A program made the position numbers and the translations under genes. Shown here one piece after another: positions 50,877 through 64,000 of a stretch of 64,000 nucleotides of DNA. The notes beneath the pieces are model-generated. The model saw only the letters and a list, made by a program, of their open reading frames with translations, had not been told where the DNA came from and did no database searches. The DNA is from Hysterangium stoloniferum. Its lineage: Eukaryota > Basidiomycota > Agaricomycetes > Hysterangiales > Hysterangiaceae. Location of the stretch: NCBI GenBank assembly GCA_015178975.1, contig WHVD01000018.1, positions 412,001-476,000 on the forward strand. Reading direction: 5' to 3'. Each line of letters opens with the position of its first letter. Position 1 is the first letter of the stretch.

Positions 50877-51914
50877 CCTGCCGCACGTATTCCTCCTTCA
50901 TTCTTTCGTGATATCAACCTTTCTCGTAAATCACACTGACACAGGCTCAACCAAACCACAACCTCCGTTTTCCTTTGGTTAACTCGCTCTGTGACCTCAT
51001 TTTCCAGTTGTATAATGTTAAAAAGTTTGTGCCATTTTAAAGCACATATAATCACTTCTTACCATCGTCATGAGTGTTAGTACTATATGTACATACGTTG
51101 ATGTGTTTGTTAGTGAGGATAACTGTTTTGAATCAAATACGGCTAGTAAGTGTCAAAGAAGGCCCCATCACCATTATTCTCGTGACTGTTAAATGAAAGG
51201 GCACAAAATAAGCCTTTATGGTGCAGAGCTTTTGCGGAAAAAGATCAGCGACAGTCACTTAGTAATTTATGCCCATTTATGTCATGTCCAGGACAAGATC
51301 TTGAAGAGTGATTTCCGTCCCCTAGGATCGGAGATATTTTAGCCACAGAGTTTTACGACACAACGGGGTCTGGACAGCCTCGGTGCGAAAATTTGTTAAT
51401 TCAGCTCTCTCCTTTTGAATTTATTTTCGGTTGATTATGAGCTTCACACACAAAATTGAAACTCAGCTCTCGCACTAATCAGCAAACTCCCACACTTCAG
51501 GCAGCTTGTGCAACATACAGTACTCGATACCCTACATATTGGAGCCTCACGCTCCATCGTACCCCTGCACCATCAGATTAAGCTTCTTCTGTTAAACTAT
51601 TAACAATTCTGCCCAAGAAGAAGGACCAACCAGCTCTGCCGACCTGTTTCATCTGATCCCATGCCAGTACTGCTACTCCCATAACTTTTAATTCCAACCC
51701 CCCTTTCCCAATCCTTATTTCTTTCCTTTCTTGATCCGGTCATCTCTCCGTCTATTTCAACTTCGGAATTGTCAGCTTTTCCCCCATGTTTCTTTCCTCA
51801 CCCAAAGCCCCAGTTAAAACTGTTCTTCACTGCCTGGTCCTGCTTTAGCAACTTGGTTAGACAATTGCCCATTATTTGCAATGCGATTCCTCCCTTTCAG
51901 CTTCAGCCCCAAAT
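50877..51914. other. Intergenic between the 549-aa gene and the rDNA relic
   Basis: No gene, no repeat recognised. Confidence 0.4.
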
Positions 51915-52118
51915 GGGAGTATGGTTGTAAGGCTGAAACTTAAAGGAATTGATGGAAGGGCACCACCAGGAGTGGAGCCTGTGGCTTAATTTGACTCAAC
52001 ATGGGGAAACTCACCAGGTCCAGACATAACTAGGATTGACAGATTGATAGCTCTTTCTTGATTTTATGGGTGGTGGTGCATGGCCGTTCTTAGTTGGTGG
52101 AGTGATTTGTCTGGTTAA
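51915..52118 (+). rRNA. 18S rRNA relic, segment 1 (truncated 5' side)
   Basis: Recognisable fungal SSU sequence from GGGAGTATGGTTGTAAGGC through AAAGGAATTGATGGAAGGGC and ATTTTATGGGTGGTGGTGC to TTTGTCTGGTTAA. Differences from the conserved SSU are mostly CpG to TpG/CpA (for example GACGG to GATGG, CACGGGG to CATGGGG). The 5' two-thirds of 18S is absent. It stops abruptly at GGTTAA, where the 6.1-kb cassette begins. Confidence 0.92.
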
Positions 52119-52225
52119 CAAGCTTAGGAACCCTTGCTACGCTGCGGGGCGGTCGCTTCGCGACCGGCCCCACAACTTCGCTGCGGGCTCCAGCTTGTTG
52201 GGGGGCGAAGCCCCCCAAACCCCCC
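52119..52225. repeat. GC-rich hairpin module, copy 1
   Basis: It begins CAAGCTTAGGAACCCTTGC and contains perfect hairpins: CGGTCGCTTCGCGACCG and GGGGGGCGAAGCCCCCC. It is followed by CGACAACTTTTAAGTATTTC, leading into the 18-bp array. Copy 2 is at 55569-55690. Confidence 0.9.
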
Positions 52226-52259
52226 CGCGTCGACAACTTTTAAGTATTTCTGAGACTCA

Positions 52260-52640
52260 TTGTTTGAACGGAAAGTGTTTAGAGAACGGAAAGTGTTCAG
52301 AGAAAGTCGCATTGGAACGGAAAGTCGCATTGGAACGGAAAGTCGTGTTGGAACGGATACAAAAGGGAACAACTGTTACAAAGGGAACAACTGTTACAAA
52401 GGGAACAACTGTTACAAAGGGAACAACTGTTACAAAGGGAACAACTGTTACAAAGGGAACAACTGTTACCAAAGGGAACAACTGTTACCAAAGGGAACAA
52501 CTGTTACCAAAGGGAACAACTGTTACCAAAGGGAACAACTGTTACCAAAGGGAACAACTGTTACCAAAGGGAACAACTGTTACCAAAGGGAACAACTGTT
52601 ACCAAAGGGAACAACTGTTACCAAAGGGAACAACCATTAC
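52260..52640 (+). repeat. Minisatellites of 18 then 19 bp
   Basis: A short array of GGAACGGAAAGTCGCATT-type units (52260-52360) runs into about 15 units of AAAGGGAACAACTGTTAC. The unit is 18 bp at first and then 19 bp (an added C) from about 52460 on. The change of length within one array shows a one-base insertion that then spread through the neighbours. Confidence 0.93.
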
Positions 52641-52694
52641 ATAACTTTTAAGTATATCTGGGGCTTTGCTGTTTTAGAACTAAAGGCATTTAAA

Positions 52695-53058
52695 GAATGG
52701 AAAGTGTGCTAAGAACGGAAAGTGTTCTAAGAACGGAAAGTGTTCTAAGAACGGAAAGTGTTCTAAGAACGGAAAGTGTTCTAAGAACGGAAAGTGTTCT
52801 AAGAACGGAAAGTGTTCTAAGAACGGAAAGTGTTCTGAGAACGGAAAGTGTTCTGAGAACGGAAAGTGTTCTAAGAACGGAAAGTGTTCTAAGAACGGAA
52901 AGTGTTCTAAGAACGGAAAGTGTTCTAAGAACGGAAAGTGTTCTAAGAACGGAAAGTGTTCTGAGAACGGAAAGTGTTCTGAGAACGGAAAGTGTTCTGA
53001 GAACGGAAAGTGTTCTAAGAACGGAAAGTGTTCAGAGAACGGAAAGTGTTCTAAGAAC
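52695..53058 (+). repeat. 18-bp minisatellite, about 20 units of AACGGAAAGTGTTCTAAG
   Basis: Nearly perfect tandem units; a few read TTCTGAG or TTCAGAG. It is the same seed as the larger array at 55722-56478. Confidence 0.95.
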
Positions 53059-53427
53059 AGAAACATCAGTCACAAATGGGAGTACAAAAGGAGACAATGG
53101 TTACAAAAGGAAACAACAGTTACACAGGAAACAACGGTTACAAAGGAGACAATGGTTACAAAAGGAAACAACAGTTACACAGGAAACAATGGTTACAAAA
53201 GGGGAGAAAGGTTACAAAGGAAACAATGGTTACAAATAGAAAGAGTGGTTAAATTGACTCTCAACTGCAAGTAATTACTGTGGTCACTCAATTTATTTAT
53301 TTTGATTTAACATATTGTATTTTGATTTATTGAATTTTATTTTATTGTTTTTCATTTCAATTTATTTTATTTTTAAACATTTTATATTCATTTATTATAT
53401 TTTATTTGAATTATTCTGATTATATTG
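53059..53427 (+). repeat. Imperfect GGTTACAAAGGAAACAA array followed by an AT-rich tract
   Basis: Units of about 18 bp (ACAATGGTTACAAAAGGAA) to 53240, then a T/A-rich tract of TTTATTTTGATTTA-like units at 53275-53427. Confidence 0.8.
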
Positions 53428-54597
53428 AGGCCGATCAGAGGGGGACAGAGGAAGAAGGAAACAAACAGTACACAGCAGCTGGACAAAGAGAGAAGGAAAC
53501 AGTACACACACTCACTGAAGAAAGGGTACCCACACCACCTGGAGGAAAGAGAGGGCTGGTCAGAGGAGGATGGTGGAAGAAGGAAATGGTAGACATACTG
53601 TAGGAAAGAGAGAGTAGGCCAATCAGAAGAACACGCACTGGAGGAAAGAGAATGGAGGCCAATCAGGGCAGGATGAAGAGAGAAGGAAAGGGTACACAAA
53701 CCAACTGGAGGGAAGAGAGAGGACCGATCAGAGCAGGATGGAGAGAGAAGGAAATAGTACACGCACTTGCTGGAGGAAAGAGAGAGGGCCAATCAGAGCA
53801 GGATGGAGGGAGGAGGAAAGGGGACACGCACCTCCTGGAGAAAAGAGAGAGGAGGACGAAGGGAGAAGGAAACGGTACACGCAGTGGCTGGAGGAAAGAG
53901 AGAGGAGGCCGATCAGAGGAGGAAAGAGAGAGGAGGCCGATCAGAGGACAAAGAGAGAAGGAAACGGTACACACACCTCCTGGAGGAAAGAGAGAGGACA
54001 AAGGGAGGAGGAAAGAGAGAGGACAAAGGGAGGAGGAAAGAGAGAGGACGAAGGGAGGAGGAAAGAGAGAGGACGAAGGGAGGAGGAAATGGTACATGCA
54101 CCGGCTGGAGGAAAGAGAGAGGAGGACAGAGGGAGAAGGAGCAGAGAGGAGAACAAAGGGAGAAGGAGCAGTACACGCACCGGCTGGAGGAAAGAGAGGG
54201 GGCCGATCAGAAGAGGACAGAGAGAGAGAGAAATGGAACGCGCACCGGCTGGAGGAAAGAGAGGGGGCCAATCAGAAGAGGACAGAGGAAGAAGGAAATG
54301 GCAGACGCACCGGCTGGAGGAAAGAGAGAGGGTCCCGATGAGAGGAGGACGGAGAGAAAAGGAAACAGTACACACCTGGAGGAAAGAGAAGATGATGATC
54401 AGAGGACAAAGAAAGAGGAAATGGTACACGCACCGGCTGGACAAAAGAGAGAAGAGGTCAATCAGAGGAGGACAGAGAGAGAAGGAAATGGTACACACAC
54501 TGGCTGGAGGAAAGAGAGAGGAGGCGGATTAGCACAGGACGGAAGGAGAAGGAAAGAGTACACACATCACCTGGAGGAAAGAGAGAGGGTGGGCTGT
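53428..54597 (+). repeat. Polypurine minisatellite, ~1.2 kb
   Basis: The plus strand is made of GAGGAAAGAGAGAGGA, GGACAGAGGGAGAAGGAAA and ACACGCACCGGCTGGAGG blocks repeated with variation at roughly 60-80 bp. T is rare throughout. Such long purine strands can form triplex (H-) DNA. The long reading frames across it on both strands are a by-product of composition. Confidence 0.9.
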
Positions 54598-54599
54598 GA

Positions 54600-55435
54600 A
54601 TGGGAGTGGGTGCGCAGTGGTGATGGGTGCGGGTGGATGGGTGCGCAGCGGATGGGTGCACGTGCGGGATGGATGGGTGCGGGATGGATGGGTGCGCGGT
54701 GGATGGGTGCACGGTGGATGGGTGCGCAGCGGATGGGTGCAGGTGCGGGATGGATGGGTGCACGGTGGATGGGTGCGGGTGGATGGGTGCGCAGCGGATG
54801 GGTGCAGGTGCGGGATGGATGGGTGCGCCGTGGATGGGTACGCCGTGGATGAGTACGCCGTGGATGAGTACGCCGTGGATGAGTGCGCCGTGGATGGGTG
54901 CGCGGTGGATGGGAGTGGGTGCGTCGTGGATGGGCGCGCGGTGGATAGGTGCGTGGATGGGCGCGCGGTGGATGGGTGCGCGGTGGATGGGTGCGCGGTG
55001 GATGGGTGCGTCGTGGATGGGCGCGTCGTGGATGGGCGCGTGGTGGATAGGTGCGTGGATGGGGGCGCGGTGGATGGGTGCGCGGTGGATGGGTGCGTCG
55101 TGGATGGGCGCGTCGTGGATGGGTGCGCCGTGGATGAGTGCGCCGTGGATGGGTGCGCGGTGCATGGGAGTGGGTGCGTCGTGGATGGGCGCGCGGTGGA
55201 TAGGTGCGTGGATGGTGCGCCGTGGGATGGGTGCGCCATGGATGGGTGCGCGGTGGATGGGTGCGCCATGGATGGGTGCGCGGTGGATGGGTACGCGGTG
55301 GATGGGTGCGGGTGGATGGGTGCGCGGTGGATGGGAGTGGGTGCGTCGTGGATAGGCGCGCGCGGGGCGGGCGGTGGATAGGTGCGTGGATGGGTGCGTG
55401 GATGGTGGGCCGTGGGATGGGTGCGCCGTGAAATG
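54600..55435 (+). repeat. 15-bp CpG-rich minisatellite, GATGGGTGCGCGGTG
   Basis: About 50 units of 15 bp with a variable CGCGG/CGCCG/CGTCG core and occasional inserts (GATGGGAGTGGGTGCG, GATAGGTGCGTG). Because 15 is a multiple of three, several frames stay open; I do not regard them as genes. Confidence 0.93.
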
Positions 55436-55496
55436 GGTACGCTGACTAAGGAGGTGACTAAGCTGATGGTACCTTTTACCTGCCTTTTACAGAGGG

Positions 55497-55700
55497 AGTT
55501 CGGGCGCTCCGCGCCCTCACAGCGCCTAAAAGCGCCCACAGACCCACCATGCTCCTTTCACTTATTTGACAAGCTTAGGAACCCTTGCTACGCTGCGGGG
55601 CGGTCGCTTCGCGACCGGCCCCACAACTTCGCTGCGGGCTCCAGCTTGTTGGGGGGCTTCGCCCCCCAAACCCCCCCGCATCGACAACTTTTAAGTATTT
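55497..55700. repeat. GC-rich hairpin module, copy 2, with a GGGCGCTCCGCGCCC hairpin upstream
   Basis: It contains GGGCGCTCCGCGCCC, then CACCATGCTCCTTTCACTT, then AAGCTTAGGAACCCTTGC and the same hairpins as copy 1. The second hairpin is inverted relative to copy 1: GGGGGGCTTCGCCCCCC here against GGGGGGCGAAGCCCCCC there. Confidence 0.9.
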
Positions 55701-55721
55701 CTGAGACTCATCGTTTGAATG

Positions 55722-56478
55722 GAAAGTGCTCAGAGAACGGAAAGTGCTCAGAGAACGGAAAGTGCTCAGAGAACGGAAAGTGCTCAGAGAACGGAAAGTG
55801 CTCAGAGAACGGAAAGTGCTCAGAGAACGGAAAGTGCTCAGAGAACGGAAAGTGCTCAGAGAACGGAAAGTGCTCAGAGAACGGAAAGTGCTCAGAGAAC
55901 GGAAAGTGCTCAGAGAACGGAAAGTGCTCAGAGAACGGAAAGTGCTCAGAGAACGGAAAGTGCTCAGAGAACGGAAAGTGCTCAGAGAACGGAAAGTGCT
56001 CAGAGAACGGAAAGTGCTCAGAGAACGGAAAGTGCTCAGAGAACGGAAAGTGCTCAGAGAACGGAAAGTGCTCAGAGAACGGAAAGTGCTCAGAGAACGG
56101 AAAGTGCTCAGAGAACGGAAAGTGCTCAGAGAACGGAAAGTGCTCAGAGAACGGAAAGTGCTCAGAGAACGGAAAGTGCTCAGAGAACGGAAAGTGCTCA
56201 GAGAACGGAAAGTGCTCAGAGAACGGAAAGTGCTCGGAGAACGGAAAGTGCTCGGAGAACGGAAAGTGCTCGGAGAACGGAAAGTGCTCGGAGAACGGAA
56301 AGTGCTCGGAGAACGGAAAGTGCTCGGAGAACGGAAAGTGCTCGTAGAACGGAAAGTGTTCGTAGAACGGAAAGTGTTCAGAGAACGGAAAGTGTTCAGA
56401 GAACGGAAAGTGTTCAGAGAACGGAAAGTGTTCAGAGAACGGAAAGTGTTCAGAGAACGGAAAGTGTTCAGAGAACGG
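55722..56478 (+). repeat. 18-bp minisatellite, about 42 units of GGAAAGTGCTCAGAGAAC
   Basis: Units are perfect and ordered by variant: a long block with GCTCAGAG, then about six GCTCGGAG, then single GCTCGTAG and GTTCGTAG, then about six GTTCAGAG. The blocks of identical variants show recent local expansion by slippage or unequal exchange. Confidence 0.96.
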
Positions 56479-57160
56479 TTACAAACGGAATCAACGGTTA
56501 CAAACGGAATCAACGGTCACAAACGGAATCAACGGTCACAAACGGAATCAACGGTCACAAAAGGACACAACGTTCACAAAAGGACACAACGTTCACCAAG
56601 GCATCAATGGTAACAAAGGCATCAACGGTCACAAAAGGACACAACGGTCACAAAAGGACACAACATTCACAAAAGGACACAACATTCACAAAAGGACACA
56701 ACATTCACAAAAGGACACAACATTCACAAAAGGACACAACATTCACCAAGGCATCAACGGTCACAAAAGGACACAACGGTCACAAAAGGAAACAACGTTC
56801 ACAATGGGAAACAATGTTCACAAAGGGAAACAACATTCACAAAGGGAAACAACGTTCACAAAGGGAAACAACGTTCACAAAGGGACACAACTTTCACAAA
56901 GGGAGACAACGTTCACAAAGGGAGACAACGTTCACAAAGGGAAACAACGTTCACAAAGGGAGACAATGTTCACAAAGGGAGACAATGTTCACAAAGGGAA
57001 ACAATGTTCACAAATGGAAACAATGGTGACAAATGGAAATGACATTCACAAAGGGAAACAACGGTGACAAATGGAAATGACAGCTACAAAAGGTGCAACA
57101 GTGACAAAAGGTGCAATAGTGACAAAAGGTGCAATAGTTTCAAAAGCAGCAATGGTTTCA
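56479..57160 (+). repeat. 18-20 bp minisatellite, ACAAAAGGACACAACATTC family
   Basis: About 35 units grading from ACAAACGGAATCAACGGT through ACAAAAGGACACAACATTC to ACAAAGGGAAACAACGTTC and finally ACAAAAGGTGCAATAGTG. It continues directly from the preceding array through the shared CGGTTACAAACGG junction. Confidence 0.92.
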
Positions 57161-57164
57161 ATCA

Positions 57165-57600
57165 AACATTGAGTTGATCTTACTGTCATGTATTGTAGTT
57201 TATTTTACTTTATGTAATTTAGTTTATTTTATTATATTTTACTTTAATTTATTGTACTTCATTTGAATTTAGTGTTATTTATTGTATTTTATTTTATTTT
57301 GTTTTGTTTTGTTTTGTTTTATTGCATTTTATTTTGACTCATTGTATTTTATTCTGATTTATTACATTTTACTTTGGTTTATTCTATTTTATTATATTTT
57401 TAAACATTTTATTTTGATTTATTGTATTTGATTTTGATTTATTGTATTCTATTTTGATTTATTACATTTTGCTTTAGTTTAATTCAATTTTTAAGCATTT
57501 TACTTTTATTTTTTGTATTTATTTCGATTTTTCCTATTTTATTTGTATTTTATCCTATGTTATTTTGATTTATTGTATTTTATTCTAATTAACCCGGAAA
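57165..57600 (+). repeat. AT-rich tract, ATTTTATTTTGATTTATTGT-like units
   Basis: A low-complexity T-rich strand with roughly 10-25 bp units. It resembles the tract at 53275-53427. Confidence 0.85.
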
Positions 57601-58218
57601 ACCATGTAGACCTCCTCCGGGGATTACCATCCTTCTCCGGGGAAATGGCTTTACAGGGGCGTGGGAAATAGTTCCACAAAATGTGTGGAAAATGCCTGAG
57701 GGGCGCGGGAAATAGTTCCGCGAAGGTATGGAAAATCACTGTGTGAAGGGCGCGGGAAATTCCCCCGGAAATGACGTGGGAAATGCTTACATGAAGGGCG
57801 CGGGAAATGTTCCTTGGCGAGTCGTGCGTGGGAAATGTCTTCATTAGGCTGTGAAATGGTTCCGCACATGTGACAAATACTCCCGCGGCATTACAAAATA
57901 CTCCCGCGCGTGTAACAATACTTCCGTGCACGTGACAAAACACTCCAGCGCCTGTAACAATACTCCCGCGGCGCCATAAATGCTCCCGCGCCGTGAGAAA
58001 AGCTCCCGCGGCGTCATTAAATACTCCTGCGTGTGCAAAAATGCCCCCGCGCTGACTAATAAGAGACTTCGGGCGCTAACGCACCCTCAGCTTAGTCACA
58101 CAGGGCGCTGCGCGCCCTCACAAATTGGGGAAAAAGCTCGGGCGCTCCGCGCCCTCACAAATAGGGCCTGCGGCGCCCAAAAACGCCCACCACCCACCAT
58201 GCTCCTTTCACTTATTTG
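57600..58218 (+). repeat. GGGCGCGGGAAAT and ACTCCCGCG repeat clusters with terminal hairpins
   Basis: First, units of about 36 bp carry GGGCGCGGGAAAT and TTCCGC (57640-57850). Then come units of about 28-30 bp with ACAAATACTCCCGCG (57860-58050). Finally there are hairpins GGGCGCTGCGCGCCC and GGGCGCTCCGCGCCC, each followed by TCACAAAT, and the boundary repeat CACCATGCTCCTTTCACTT just before 18S resumes. Confidence 0.85.
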
Positions 58219-58652
58219 ATTCTGATAATGAACGAGACCTTCCCGTGCTAAATAGCCTGGCTGGCTTTGGCTGATCGTCAGCTTCTTAGATGGACTATCA
58301 GCAACTAGCTGATGGAAGTTGGAGGCAATAACAGGTCTGTGATGCCCTTAGAAGTTCTGGGCCACACATGCACTACACTGACAGAGCCAGCGAGTTTATC
58401 ACCTAGGCCAGAAGGTCCGGGTAATCTTGTGAAACTCTGTCATGCTGGGGATAGAGCATTGCAATCATTGCTCTTCAACGAGGGATTCCTAGTAGGCGTG
58501 AGTCAACTGCTCACATCAATTATGTCCCTGCCCTTTGTACACACTGCCCGTCGCTACTACTGATTGAATGGCTTAGTGATGTCTTCGGATTGGCTTCAGG
58601 GAGCTGGAGACAGCACCCTGTTGCTGAGAAGTCAATCAAACTTGGTTGTTTA
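58219..58652 (+). rRNA. 18S rRNA relic, segment 2
   Basis: SSU resumes at ATTCTGATAATGAACGAGAC and runs through GAGGCAATAACAGGTCTGTG and GTACACACTGCCCGTCGC to AACTTGGTTGTTTA. CpG sites are mostly mutated (CATGCACTACACTG where functional copies have CACGCGCGCTACACTG). Confidence 0.93.
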
Positions 58653-59327
58653 GGAGGGTGTTTATAATTACTATAATCTCAAATATTTACTAATAAAAGT
58701 CTTATTTTTACAAAACTCCATCTTTAAATAGTGATATCTATTCTGAAACAATTATATCATCAAAAAACAACCATCAGAAATAGTTCTCCATATTACATCT
58801 TATACAACCCATACTTATTTAACAAATTCCATTGTATATAATTTCCTTCCTTTTACAGATGCCTACTAATACTTTTATTAGTACTTTGTTTTTTAAAAGT
58901 TGTAATGAAGTTATTTCCATGTAAAATATGTAAAATATTATTGGAAATTTTTCATACCACAGCTGTCTTTATTAAGTAAAACCCCCTATATATTCTGGGT
59001 ATGTTGAATCAAGTAGAAATCTGTTCAGATTGACAGATCCATTCCAAAGTAATACATATGTATTTAGAGGTGCCAATGATATACATATGCATGGAATGGA
59101 CTATCTAAAGGTATCTATTTTTTAAAAGTATTAGTGTTTCAAACTACTAATTTTTTTGATTGTCTACTTGTGTCTGGAAAGATTCATTAGTTTGTAATGT
59201 ATGAGAGAGTTTAAAACTTTTTGAAAGTTTTAAAAACCAAATTATGTTTGAATCACATCCCAGATGTTTAAATGACCTTTAGAGTACATTAGAATTTGGT
59301 ATACTTAATAGTTTTCAGATATCCTCC
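58653..59327. mobile_element. 675-bp AT-rich insertion in 18S, PIF/Harbinger-like (TTA duplication)
   Basis: It is flanked by TTA on both sides (58650-58652, 59328-59330), and removing one copy restores the conserved ATTTA-GAGGAAGTAAAAG of SSU. The ends are inverted (GGAGGGTG.. and ..ATATCCTCC), though similarity fades after about 10 bp. A 3-bp TTA target is typical of PIF/Harbinger elements. No open frame or group I intron core is visible. Confidence 0.65.
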
Positions 59328-59330
59328 TTA

Positions 59331-59386
59331 GAGGAAGTAAAAGTCATAACAAGGTTTCCGTAGGTGAACCTGCAGAAGGATCATTA
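59331..59386 (+). rRNA. 18S rRNA relic, 3' terminal segment
   Basis: GAGGAAGTAAAAGTCATAAC through TAGGTGAACCTGCAGAAGG to TCATTA, the conserved 3' end of SSU. GTCGTAAC has become GTCATAAC, and TGCGGAAGG has become TGCAGAAGG. Confidence 0.95.
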
Positions 59387-59550
59387 ACAAATGAAACTTA
59401 AAGTGCCTTTGAGGTGCGACATCTCACACACCTGTGCACCCGGTGGACGTCTTGAGACTCTCAAGCTGTTCACTACAATTTTTTTTTTACAATGATGCCT
59501 GTAACGAAAGCATGTCCCTTGAGCTCTATGGAGTGCAAACAACATTAATA
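59387..59550 (+). other. Internal transcribed spacer 1 (relic)
   Basis: Lies between the SSU end and the 5.8S start. It is about 164 bp, in the normal fungal range, and has a T run at 59479-59488. Confidence 0.85.
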
Positions 59551-59707
59551 CAACTTTCAACAATGGATCTCTTGGCTTTCGCATTGATGAAGAATGCTGC
59601 GAAAGTGCAAAGCATAATGTGAATTGCAGAATTCAGTGAATCATCAAATCTTTGAACACATCTTGCGCTCCTTGGTATTCTGAGGAGCATGCCTGTGAGT
59701 GTCGTGA
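59551..59707 (+). rRNA. 5.8S rRNA relic
   Basis: It starts CAACTTTCAACAATGGATC (functional copies have AACGGATC) and contains GTGAATTGCAGAATTCAGTG and AATCTTTGAACACATCTTGC, ending near GCATGCCTGTGAGTGTCGTG. CpG to TpG/CpA changes at several invariant sites mark it as non-functional. Confidence 0.95.
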
Positions 59708-59908
59708 AGTCTCTCAAGTCTGAGTCTCTTTTGACTTCAGGGTTCAGATTTGGACGTTTGCCGTTCTTGTTGGCTTGTCTCGAAATGCATTAGCCGTTCC
59801 CATTTCCACAGACAACAGTGTGATAAATGAAAATTGCTCGTGTCTTGTGGTAACAAAAATGGGGGATGGCTTACAGTCATCCTTTTTGGACAATACACAT
59901 GTCATCTG
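59708..59908 (+). other. Internal transcribed spacer 2 (relic)
   Basis: About 200 bp between 5.8S and the LSU start, with the usual fungal TTTGACTTCAGG-type start region. Confidence 0.85.
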
Positions 59909-60690
59909 ACCTCAAACCAGGTAGGACTACCCACTGAACTTAAGCATATCAATAAGCAGAGGAAAAGAAACTAACAAGGATTCCCCTAGTAATGGCGAGT
60001 GAAGTGGGAAAAGCTCAAATTTGTAATCTGGCAGTCTTCAGCCATCCAAGTTGTAGTCTGGAGAAGTGTCTTCCGTGCCAGACTGTGTACAAGTCCCTTG
60101 GAACAGGGCATCGTAGAGGGTGAGAATCCCGTCTCTGACACAGACTGCTGGTGCTCTGTGATGTGCTCTCAAAGAGTCGAGTTGTTTGGGAATGCAGCTC
60201 AAAATGGGTGGTAAATTCCATCTAAAGCTAAATATTGGTGAAAGACCAATAGCAAACAAGTACCATGAGGGAAAGATGAAAAGCACTGTGGAAAGAGAGT
60301 TAAACAGTATGTGAAATTGTTGAAAGGGAAACACTTGAAGTCAGTCGTGTCTTCCGAGACTCAGCCAGGTTTCTTACCTGGTGTACTTCTCAGTGTTGAT
60401 GGGCCAGCATCGATTTCGACCGTTGGAGAAAGGCTCTGGGAACATGGCACCTTTGGGTGTGTTATAGCCCTCTGTCGTATGCGACAGTCAGGATTGAGGA
60501 CCACAGCATGCCCTTCACTGGGCCGGGGTTCATCCACATAATGCACTTAGGATGCTGGCATAATGGCTTTAAGCGACCCATCTTGAAACATGGACCAAGG
60601 AGTCTAACATGCCTGCGAGTGTTTGGATGGAAAACCCAAGCACGTAATGAAAGTGAAAAGGTCGGGACCTCCCCCATGGAGGGCACCAAA
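59909..60690 (+). rRNA. 28S (LSU) rRNA relic, 5' ~780 bp (D1-D2)
   Basis: GACCTCAAACCAGGTAGGAC, then ACTTAAGCATATCAATAAGC, AACAAGTACCATGAGGG and AGCGACCCATCTTGAAACATG are all diagnostic LSU segments. It ends around CCATGGAGGGCACC, after which the sequence is unrelated. CpG depletion matches the SSU relic. Confidence 0.95.
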
Positions 60691-61029
60691 CTACAGTTTC
60701 TACATGTATATATAGATTTTAGAGTCATCTTCTAATTCAGACACATGACAAGCCAAGCCAAGCCAAGTATAGAACACAAAAAGAGAAAGGCCAAATCAAG
60801 TGAACAACAGGAACAATATGACAAATCAGGAAGGGATCTCAGGTTCCAAAAATACATCTGATAATTCATTGGAAGTTGAAAGGGGATTGGAAACATAATC
60901 AGGTCCAAGACAAGGTTGTTGGTCAAGGTCAAGTTCAAGTTCCAGCACTTGTCTAGATAAGGTGAAATATGAGAGTAAGTTGTATGTGGCTGCACTTACA
61001 GTATGACTATGGGGATTATGGATGATTAT

Positions 61030-61640
61030 GGCAGAGTGTTAGGATGTTAAGAACTGAAAACTGACTGATGTTGGTAGACTGATGGGGACCAAATGGAAGG
61101 ACTTGGCTTCAGCTTATGTGCTGCTCCCTTGCAAGTTACTGTTGGGTGTCCTTAAATTTCAGGTGGGCAAAAACTAGTCCTGTCGAGTAAACCTCTCCAT
61201 AAACAACTGATCAGAAACCGAAGGATAAGTTGAGGGTTGGGTTGGAGAGTCAGAGACTGAGAGTTGGAGACTGAGAGTTTGAAATCGTAAATGTACGTTG
61301 AATCATAAATTGGATGGGGTCAGAATGTGGTGGTTGTGAATAGATAATGGAGTCAGAGATTAGAAGGGTATCTAAGTAGTAGCTATATTACAGCAGGTCT
61401 ATATACAAATTATTGGCATCTAGAAATTACTAACTAAGGGAAGAGTGGAAACACTATTTGACAAATAGACTTGACTAGAAACTGGAAGGTTATGATAAGA
61501 TCAGAAGCCATGATTAGCTGAGAGTGGGATTACAAGAAAAGGGAATAGTACATAAGCTACAAGTATTTACAGGCATATGTGAAACATAGAGTAGAGCGGA
61601 TCAACATAAGTAAAAGGGGACATATCAAAGCATAACCAGA
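61030..61640 (-). repeat. Dispersed repeat, inverted copy of about 46090-46720
   Basis: It contains GGACTTGGCTTCAGCTTATG at 61099 and matches the 46-kb region in inverted orientation through ATGGAGTCAGAGATTAG, AGTAGCTATATTACAGCAGG and GGGGACATATCAAAGCATAA. Confidence 0.7.
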
Positions 61641-62215
61641 TGGTATGAGCATAACTTGACAGGGGTGTAAATGGGGTTTGATCACCATGAGGGTGTACAT
61701 CAGTGTTGGTGTTCTGACAGTTGCCGAAACAATGACTTGATCAATAACTTGGAACATTGATAGACAGTAGTATCCTCAGGGACTGTCAGGTTGTGACACA
61801 GTTATGACATGGTTGTAACATAGGACCCAATCTTGGCACCAACCTCAGCTCTAACCCCTGAACCTGATATCAGCCCTAATTGCAACTCTGATCTCATCAA
61901 ATGATGGGTGTCAAGATTCAAGATTGTAAGGGGACATTTCATTTCTTGCTTTCTTTAATTTGGTATCATTTTGATATATATCTTAACCAGTTTCCCAATT
62001 ATTTACACTTTCAAATCCTCTCCTAGGGTTACCAGCTCCCCCATAAATTACTTTGACTTGGTTTGTTAAGGGTTCATACATGGAGGGTTTCTGGGGAAAC
62101 CCATGGGAAATCCAGTAGGACTTGGCTTCAGCTTATAGGCTGCACCCTCGCGAGATCATCTTGTCCAATTTCAAACAGGCAGATGGGAATCCCAGGGAGT
62201 CTGGGCAGAGTTCAT

Positions 62216-62470
62216 GGGTTGAGAGGTTGTGGGTTGAGAGGTTGTGGGTTGAGAGGTTGTGGGTTGAGAGGTTGTGGGTTGAGAGGTTGTGGGTTGAGAG
62301 GTTGTGGGTTGAGAGGTTGTGGGTTGAGAGGTTGTGGGTTGAGAGGTTGTGGGTTGAGAGGTTGTGGGTTGAGAGGTTGTGGGTTGAGAGGTTGTGGGTT
62401 GAGAGGTTGTGGGTTGAGAGGTTGTGGGTTGAGAGGTTGTGGGTTGAGAGGTTGTGGGTTGAGAGGTTGG
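62216..62470 (+). repeat. 15-bp minisatellite GGGTTGAGAGGTTGT, 17 units
   Basis: Perfect tandem units with only the last slightly altered. They lie about 70 bp after a further copy of the GGACTTGGCTTCAGCTTAT end at 62118. Frames across it are compositional artefacts. Confidence 0.97.
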
Positions 62471-63138
62471 GGAGTCAAGATAGATAAGTCGGAGGTTGAG
62501 TGATAGATGCATCAGAGCCTGTGGGCTCTGACTAGTGAGAGCAGTGTGATTCAAAGAGGAGTTTAGAGTGGAAAATGTACTAGATTACTGGGGAGAATCT
62601 AAGCTGATTTTCTGACTGGATTGTATGTACAACATCTGCCAGACTATATAGACTGTGGAATGAATAACATACCAAATCCAGTAATAATGAAAATGAAACT
62701 AACAAACATAAAATGAGATAAGTAAACACCAAACTTGGTGTTAGGAATGGGATGGAATGGAAATGGAGTCTGAATCATGACAGGTCATAAAACCATAATG
62801 GGAATGGAGCTCAGTTAGAGGGATGATGGGTGTGAGGTATCAGCTTTATCTCATAATTTTCTCTTAATTTTCTTTGAATTTATTAATATTTTCTCGAATT
62901 TATTGTATTTTTATGATATTTTTATTGTGAAATATAGGCTCTATTACTTTTAACTTCACATAATAATAGCATATATGAACTCATATTATGCTATTATATC
63001 TTAGTTAATTTATTATAATTTCTAACTAGTTATTTATATTTTATTTACTTAGTTATTACCTTTCGGCACCTTGTGCAGCCTAGTTTGCGCATTTTTGGAG
63101 TCATGTGACCTATTACATAAGCCTCCGGTGTCGGGATG

Positions 63139-63232
63139 TCACAAAGGTCACGAATGTGACTACCCGAGTCACACAAGTCACGAATGTGACTACCCGAGTC
63201 ACACAAGTCACGAACGTGACTACCCGAGTCAT
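63139..63232 (+). repeat. 30-bp tandem repeat, about three units
   Basis: CGAATGTGACTACCCGAGTC followed by ACACAAGTCA, repeated. Each unit contains the self-complementary halves GTGACT and AGTCAC. Confidence 0.85.
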
Positions 63233-63519
63233 TATTAGGTTCCGCCGACTCATCGTTTGCTTCCGTCCCGGGACCGCGGCCTTGAACCTACATGTTCAAG
63301 CAAGAGGTTACAACCCTTGTCTCAGAGAAGAGAATCACATCATAGACAAAGGGTAAATATTGAGTAGAATATGAGGTCATTATGATCTCACTAATGACCT
63401 CATAAACTAATGTTAAATTTGATGATGAAACACACCTTTTTATAGGGGGAGTCCACCAATTATTGCAACTTTTCATATGAAGATGCTAATTGTGGACCAT
63501 GCTTTTGGAGGTTAATGTG

Positions 63520-64000
63520 TGTCAGAACCACTATACACCTCCCAGAGCATCCAACCTATATTGTCAGGAGGTGCTACACTAACTGACACAAGATATTGAG
63601 ACACAAAGTACTTTTATTACAAGCTTATTAAACTCTTGTATATTGTGTATTGCAATAGAGTCAACTCATACTATTTTTAATAACTAAATAGTTAGCTAAT
63701 CATTGAGTTATCAAAATGTATATAAGGAGGGCCAAGTTTCCAATAAAACCAATCTATCTCTCACACATTTTACAGTACAGCACAGAAGCTTACCTCATCA
63801 TCCTAAGGACAATAATAGCCTTAGTCTGATACACTCACTGCAAGCACCTACACTTGCAGCATCTTGAATCTTTGTCAGCAACTCTTGAACTTAGCTAATC
63901 ATCTAAGTTCCCCCAGCCTCACAGCTACCCTTTAGGCTTATTAATTACATAATAAACCTAATAAGTATCCTTACTGAAATCCCTGCCAATACTAGATTAC
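63520..64000 (+). repeat. Probable 5' LTR of a gypsy-type retrotransposon, running off the window
   Basis: It starts TGTCAGAACCACTATACACC and has a promoter-like TATATAAGGAGGGCC near 63719 followed by CCAATAAAACC and CTATCTCTCACAC, a layout common in fungal Ty3/gypsy LTRs. No primer site or second LTR is visible because the window ends, so this is an inference from layout. Confidence 0.4.

Follow-up and report, generated by a model that had tools for sequence, protein, structure and literature searches.

Two head-to-tail non-autonomous Helitrons interrupt an 18S rRNA gene relic in Hysterangium stoloniferum

Canonical Helitrons insert between an A and a T, a rule stated in both PMC5148889 and PMC4289320. 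According to the parts of these and the following reports that were accessible, HELPO2 of Pleurotus ostreatus has a CTTG 3' end and a subterminal hairpin and inserts between A and T with no target duplication, and in HELPO1 and HELPO2 the Rep and helicase (RepHel) are in one frame (PMC4289320, Castanera et al. 2014). Adjacent head-to-tail Helitrons are reported from maize and, as cited there, from the bat Myotis, and one of the models offered for the maize pair is an insertion at the host A and the T of the resident 5' end (PMC2267711). In FoHeli of Fusarium oxysporum, stacked 5' termini repeat the first 73 or 85 nt of the element (PMC5148889). Here we investigated a window of 64,000 nt from Hysterangium stoloniferum (GCA_015178975.1; contig WHVD01000018.1, positions 412,001 to 476,000), in which a relic of the 18S, or small-subunit (SSU), rRNA gene is split by a block of 6.1 kb. 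We consider it nearly certain that this block consists of two head-to-tail, minus-strand, non-autonomous canonical Helitrons, inserted between A and T and presumably moved by the RepHel of related elements. The element ends, the target, the lack of duplication, the empty sites, the ends in common with RepHel-coding elements and the tandem junctions were read directly; that RepHel acted in trans on the two units is inferred.

The SSU reads to ...TCTGGTTAA at 52118 and picks up as TTCTGATAATGAACG at 58220, with no target bases lost and none duplicated, and the block sits exactly between an A and a T. The A at 58219 is assignable to either side of the right join, and we give it to the element because of the insertion rule. 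Within the 111-Mb genome, nine other dispersed SSU copies span the site and all nine are uninterrupted, four of them compared at the letter level (C15, C110, C516 and C246) and five by coordinates (C353, C496, C533, C90:356 kb and C477); the SSU piece C496:529701-530003 stops short of the site and was left out of this count. Since these copies run straight through, 52119-58219 is inserted DNA, and the earlier sequence-only reading, which described an SSU split without loss, was right on this point. The left part of the relic matches six SSU copies at 94-98% along all or almost all of its length, C90:356 kb in two pieces (94 and 98%) and two further copies at 83-84%.

The block contains two units meeting at 55569/55570 (Table 1), a make-up absent from the sequence-only reading. 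On the plus strand, CAAGCTTAGGAACCC is found twice, at 52119 and at 55570, and the two occurrences of CTCCTTTCACTTATTTGA have their last base at 55569 and at 58219; on the minus strand, both units open with TCAAATAAGTGAAAGGAG and close with GGGTTCCTAAGCTTG. The same ends, of 15-17 bp, are present in both (5' TCAAATAAGTG and 3' CTAAGCTTG). The units differ from each other, with unit 2 covering 36% of unit 1, unit 1 covering 53% of unit 2, and the best shared piece reaching 82% over 550 bp. Elements elsewhere in the genome cover unit 2 fully (C234, C512, C475 and C334b; 98% in C106), with best pieces at 90-97%, and unit 1 by 87-89% (two C334a elements and C212), with best pieces at 83-89%.

As had been described, the interior consists of tandem repeats, polypurine DNA and GC hairpins without an enzyme gene. 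Eleven stop-to-stop frames of at least 250 aa were found in the block, and no enzyme family was detected by Pfam in the 10 scanned, for which reason a gene-bearing insert was rejected. Seven of these frames have no match, and three match families of low complexity or rich in repeats (one frame both EGF_Teneurin and Collagen, the other two Extensin_1 and LED_rpt, respectively). EGF_Teneurin is the only match over the cut-off (E 3.1e-08, with no single stretch passing), and we take it for a translated minisatellite. An Rfam scan of the whole window at gathering score returned three rRNA matches and no other structured RNA, so a group I intron or another structured RNA was rejected, there being no match to a catalytic core. 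A transposon with terminal inverted repeats was also rejected, since no inverted repeat pair of at least 25 bp (seed 14) is present over 51700-64000, shorter ones being judged by eye only; the lack of terminal inverted repeats agrees with canonical Helitrons.

The ends of the units are dispersed over the genome. The 3'-end word CAAGCYTRGGAACCC occurs exactly 364 times, against none for a reversed-pattern control, and 360 of these ends are preceded by A in the plus-strand view, that is, followed by T in the Helitron view. The 5'-end word CTTTCACTTATTTGA has 93 exact occurrences, rising to 145 when one mismatch is allowed (control 6). On the outer side of the 93 exact 5' ends, the expected target base T is found in 45 and the 3' end of another member in 39, the others being 8 in one stacked array and 1 of another kind. 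Exact head-to-tail junctions, with TTGGA ends allowed, number 47 genome-wide (control 0). Insertion between A and T with no target duplication is thus seen at the 3' ends, at the 5' ends and at the empty SSU sites. The list of family copies is a lower bound, as 27 of 1721 candidates were scored. The suggestion of the sequence-only reading that the insert uses rDNA (the rRNA gene repeats) as target is not supported, given 3' ends spread over the genome and nine spanning SSU copies with no insert at this site.

Twelve elements were delimited, two RepHel-coding ones included. All start with TC, as canonical Helitrons do, which is consistent with this class and not independent evidence for it because of how they were picked and cut: 11 were chosen by the 5' word and cut between A and T, and the C234 RepHel element was cut at its neighbor. 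The last 75 nt of each were folded with RNA energy parameters (unshuffled sequences only), and 11 of the 12 form a 65-nt hairpin that stops 8 nt short of the 3' end, while all have its inner stem. A hairpin shortly before the 3' end, as in canonical Helitrons, is therefore clearly present. Five pairs vary among the 11 hairpins: two remain paired as G-U, two are each broken in a single element, and the fifth has a compensatory A-T in one element and an A-C mismatch in another.

The same kind of ends is found in elements that do encode RepHel, of 7.2-7.3 kb, with open frames carrying Helitron_like_N and PIF1. One of them (C234:22640-29866) has an open frame of 1913 aa with Helitron_like_N (E 1.1e-57) and PIF1 (9.5e-74), and another (C334:1621463-1628794) has a frame of 1923 aa with both domains within the 1817 aa scanned. 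Strings that we take to be the HxH, YxxxY and Walker A motifs of RepHel are present in both frames. The genome has 151 places matching Helitron_like_N (PF14214), and the best 95 of them were set against the 93 exact 5' ends. Within this set, 25 end-Rep pairs have the Rep 3.0-5.7 kb downstream on the Helitron strand, with none on the opposite strand; they represent 16 distinct Reps, since a single stacked end accounts for nine pairs and a single Rep for two. In 9 further pairs, likewise without exception on the same strand, the end has the Rep on its other side, as expected if the Rep belongs to a neighbor in tandem.

Ten non-autonomous units were compared with these coding elements. The 3' end of the C234 element is found over 136 bp at 88-91% in eight of the ten, at 87% in C212, and over 66 bp only in C106; taking the C234 and C334 elements together, nine of the ten have the 136 bp at 87-92%. 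At the 5' end, 78 to about 260 bp are common to the units and the C334 element. Over 7253 bp, the C334 and C234 elements are 99.1% identical, and C334 has 78 bp more at its 5' end. These 78 bp are almost the same as the 5' terminus of unit 1, an end having been either swapped or added. The sequence-only reading had also considered a repeat-only parasite; the two units are indeed without a gene, but their ends are those of RepHel-coding Helitrons in the same genome.

Compared by description, the family resembles HELPO2 in the CTTG 3' end, the target between A and T, the hairpin, RepHel and the lack of duplication, and differs in having non-autonomous units, as intact non-autonomous copies of HELPO2 are not reported in the accessible part of PMC4289320, and in its stop-to-stop frames of 1913-1923 aa, against a RepHel of about 1400 aa (PMC4289320). 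As in the maize pair, a 3' end is followed directly by the TC of the next element and the partners are unlike, although one pair is described in the accessible part of PMC2267711 and 47 exact junctions were found in this one genome. Neighboring insertions and multiple stacked 5' termini are also known from FoHeli, which differs in its Helitron2-like ends and other targets, in contrast to the A and T target and the 3' hairpin found here (PMC5148889). At C51:36595-36961, nine Helitron 5' termini are stacked 44 bp apart on the 5' side of a RepHel element. Since the HELPO2, maize and Fusarium reports show such ends, tandems and stacked 5' ends, the block belongs to a known kind, Helitrons, and the earlier statement that no rDNA insertion of this kind had been described loses its ground, the anatomy being that of a canonical Helitron; the family itself may be undescribed. 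DINE-TR1 and other Drosophila Helitrons are reportedly non-autonomous with a tandem array in the interior, alike in this respect and different in repeat units, host and ends. The literature gave no title about Helitrons within 18S rDNA, which is weak evidence of absence, as titles and the starts of abstracts were covered.

Some observations count against the assignment to canonical Helitrons moved by this RepHel. The 3' end is CTTG in all 12 elements, which were picked by that word, and not the textbook CTRR; this motif is too narrow as a rule, however, because CTTG is published as the HELPO2 end. Four of the 364 3' ends do not adjoin an A. The C106 element lacks the outer stem of the hairpin and keeps the inner one, and the covariation of the stem gives slight support, with one compensatory change and two pair-breaking ones. 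Unit 1 has no 5'-end match to the C234 element, only to that of C334, and it is one of three such units among the ten.

Under the two-Helitron reading, the RepHel of the related 7.2-7.3 kb elements would recognize the common ends (TC... on the 5' side, the hairpin and CTTG on the 3' side), and rolling-circle transposition would move the units into AT dinucleotides with no target duplication. Unit 1 probably came first and unit 2 later, because with insertion restricted to such dinucleotides an added element fits only on the 5' side of a resident; unit 2 would have entered one whose A belongs to the flank and whose T, in the Helitron view, is the first base of unit 1. The stepwise accretion that had been offered as one possibility is thus close, two insertions being the best reading, the later of them at the target that the 5' end of its predecessor created. 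The minisatellites would be cargo that grows and shrinks inside the element and not the mobility machinery.

It is unlikely, although it deserves some weight, that the two units are instead one rolling-circle read-through, a tandem dimer landed in a single event. The head-to-tail junction is exact, with no extra bases, and the direct succession of CTTG and TC counts against us in that it fits read-through equally with a second insertion. Read-through tandems have been postulated for Helitrons on the argument that two elements inserted independently ought to be separated by a host A, which is missing here; the same source also proposes the insertion at the host A and the first T of the resident, which gives the same junction (accessible part of PMC2267711). 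On the other hand, the two units are different subtypes, as their low mutual cover indicates, and elsewhere a RepHel-coding element adjoins a non-coding one, directly in C234 and with 3 bases between them in C334. We favor a second insertion because the units are unlike each other, not because of the junction.

An assembly chimera, with repeat-rich reads wrongly joined to the rDNA contig, seems very improbable to us. Long near-perfect minisatellites with high-copy ends are hard to assemble, family copies stand at the starts of contigs C186, C331 and C550, and it weighs against our reading as well that the joins were read from the assembled sequence. Even so, both outer joins fall exactly at the boundary seen in 360 of the 364 3' ends and 45 of the 93 5' ends (39 more being family junctions), and the 1.02-Mb contig runs on into the 5.8S and large-subunit (LSU) rRNA of the same relic.

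R1/R2 elements and Pokey are rDNA insertions, and R2 inserts site-specifically in 28S genes, as far as the accessible description goes. A repeat parasite of this sort, homing to the SSU site, can be practically dismissed: the insertion is precise and lies in conserved SSU sequence, but the flanks of the other insertions read look unrelated to rDNA (by eye), the nine other spanning copies are empty, and the target seems to have been decayed already. The identity with R elements was rejected on the genome-wide ends and the empty SSU copies, the likeness being limited to an insertion in rDNA by a family that is not rDNA-directed, and the rDNA location looks like chance.

The relic departs from the majority of four other SSU copies by 38 differences, and C>T or G>A changes make up 26 of these. 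Its observed/expected (o/e) CpG ratio is 0.31, as compared with 0.85 in C516, which is the least decayed of the copies read, and with 0.90 and 1.07 in the two inserted units. Most simply read, these data place the decay and death of the rDNA copy before the arrival of both Helitrons. As a further point on the unfavorable side, this order is taken from CpG content only, and the methylation of the repeats may differ, so that CpG content is no proof of it. Among the other copies read, C246 has a CpG o/e of 0.32, about as the relic in the window, with 0.66 in C15 and 0.72 in C110.

Given that 39 of the 93 exact 5' ends are occupied by the 3' end of another member, we tentatively raise the possibility, of which we remain rather doubtful, of a Helitron lineage whose non-autonomous members are hardly more than minisatellites carried between Helitron ends and which prefers the 5' ends of its own members as insertion targets, building mixed head-to-tail arrays. 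If true, long arrays resembling satellites would arise from Helitron self-targeting. In place of a supposed new class of rDNA insertion there is now an ordinary transposon insertion; what stays useful is a clean and abundant case of Helitrons that carry minisatellites and accrete end to end, in a genome that also has their RepHel-coding relatives, a system suited to testing Helitron target choice and the seeding of tandem repeats.

Table 1. Features of the interrupted rRNA relic, in window positions (MITE, miniature inverted-repeat transposable element)
Feature	Position	Strand	Remarks
Non-autonomous Helitron, unit 1, 3451 bp	52119..55569	-	5' end TCAAATAAGTG at 55569, 3' end CTAAGCTTG at 52119
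Unit 1, 3' subterminal hairpin	52127..52191	-	8 nt before 3' end; folding, RNA energy parameters
Unit 1, 3' terminal 136 bp	52119..52254	-	common to RepHel-coding elements, 89-90%
Unit 1, interior	52266..55442		18-19-bp minisatellites, AT-rich stretch, polypurine repeats, 15-bp GGATGGGTGCG-type array
Unit 1, 5' terminal 78 bp	55492..55569	-	98.7% to 5' end of RepHel-coding C334 element
Non-autonomous Helitron, unit 2, 2650 bp	55570..58219	-	5' end at 58219, 3' end at 55570; abuts unit 1
Unit 2, 3' subterminal hairpin	55578..55642	-	folding
Unit 2, arrays	55717..57146		18-bp array (42 copies), then 19-bp and 18-bp arrays
Unit 2, 5' terminal 242 bp	57978..58219	-	80-82% to stretches at or near 5' ends of RepHel-coding elements
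SSU rRNA relic, left part	51915..52118	+	ends at A of the A and T target; genome SSU copies and alignment
SSU rRNA relic, continuation	58220..58653	+	starts at T of the A and T target; Rfam scan, genome SSU copies and alignment
Second insert, MITE-like	58654..59327		ends GGAGGGTGT/GGAGGATAT, 3-4-bp target duplication
SSU relic end, beyond second insert	59328..59386	+	by reading and alignment
5.8S rRNA of relic unit	59552..59704	+	Rfam scan
LSU rRNA, 5' part, of relic unit	59930..60593	+	Rfam scan

The same SSU relic contains a second insert of 0.67 kb (58654-59327), absent from the sequence-only reading. It has at least 15 further places in the genome at 98-99%, and the target duplication is TTA or TTAG in the window copy and ATA or ATAG in one other copy read. 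It looks like a recent MITE, possibly of a PIF/Harbinger-like kind. The rDNA relic ends abruptly on both sides, at about 51912 and about 60690 of the window, and by reading and the Rfam scan the unit is without the 5' part of the SSU and most of the LSU. Downstream of it are a perfect 17-copy array of 15 bp (62215-62469) and a 3-copy array of 30 bp (63138-63231).

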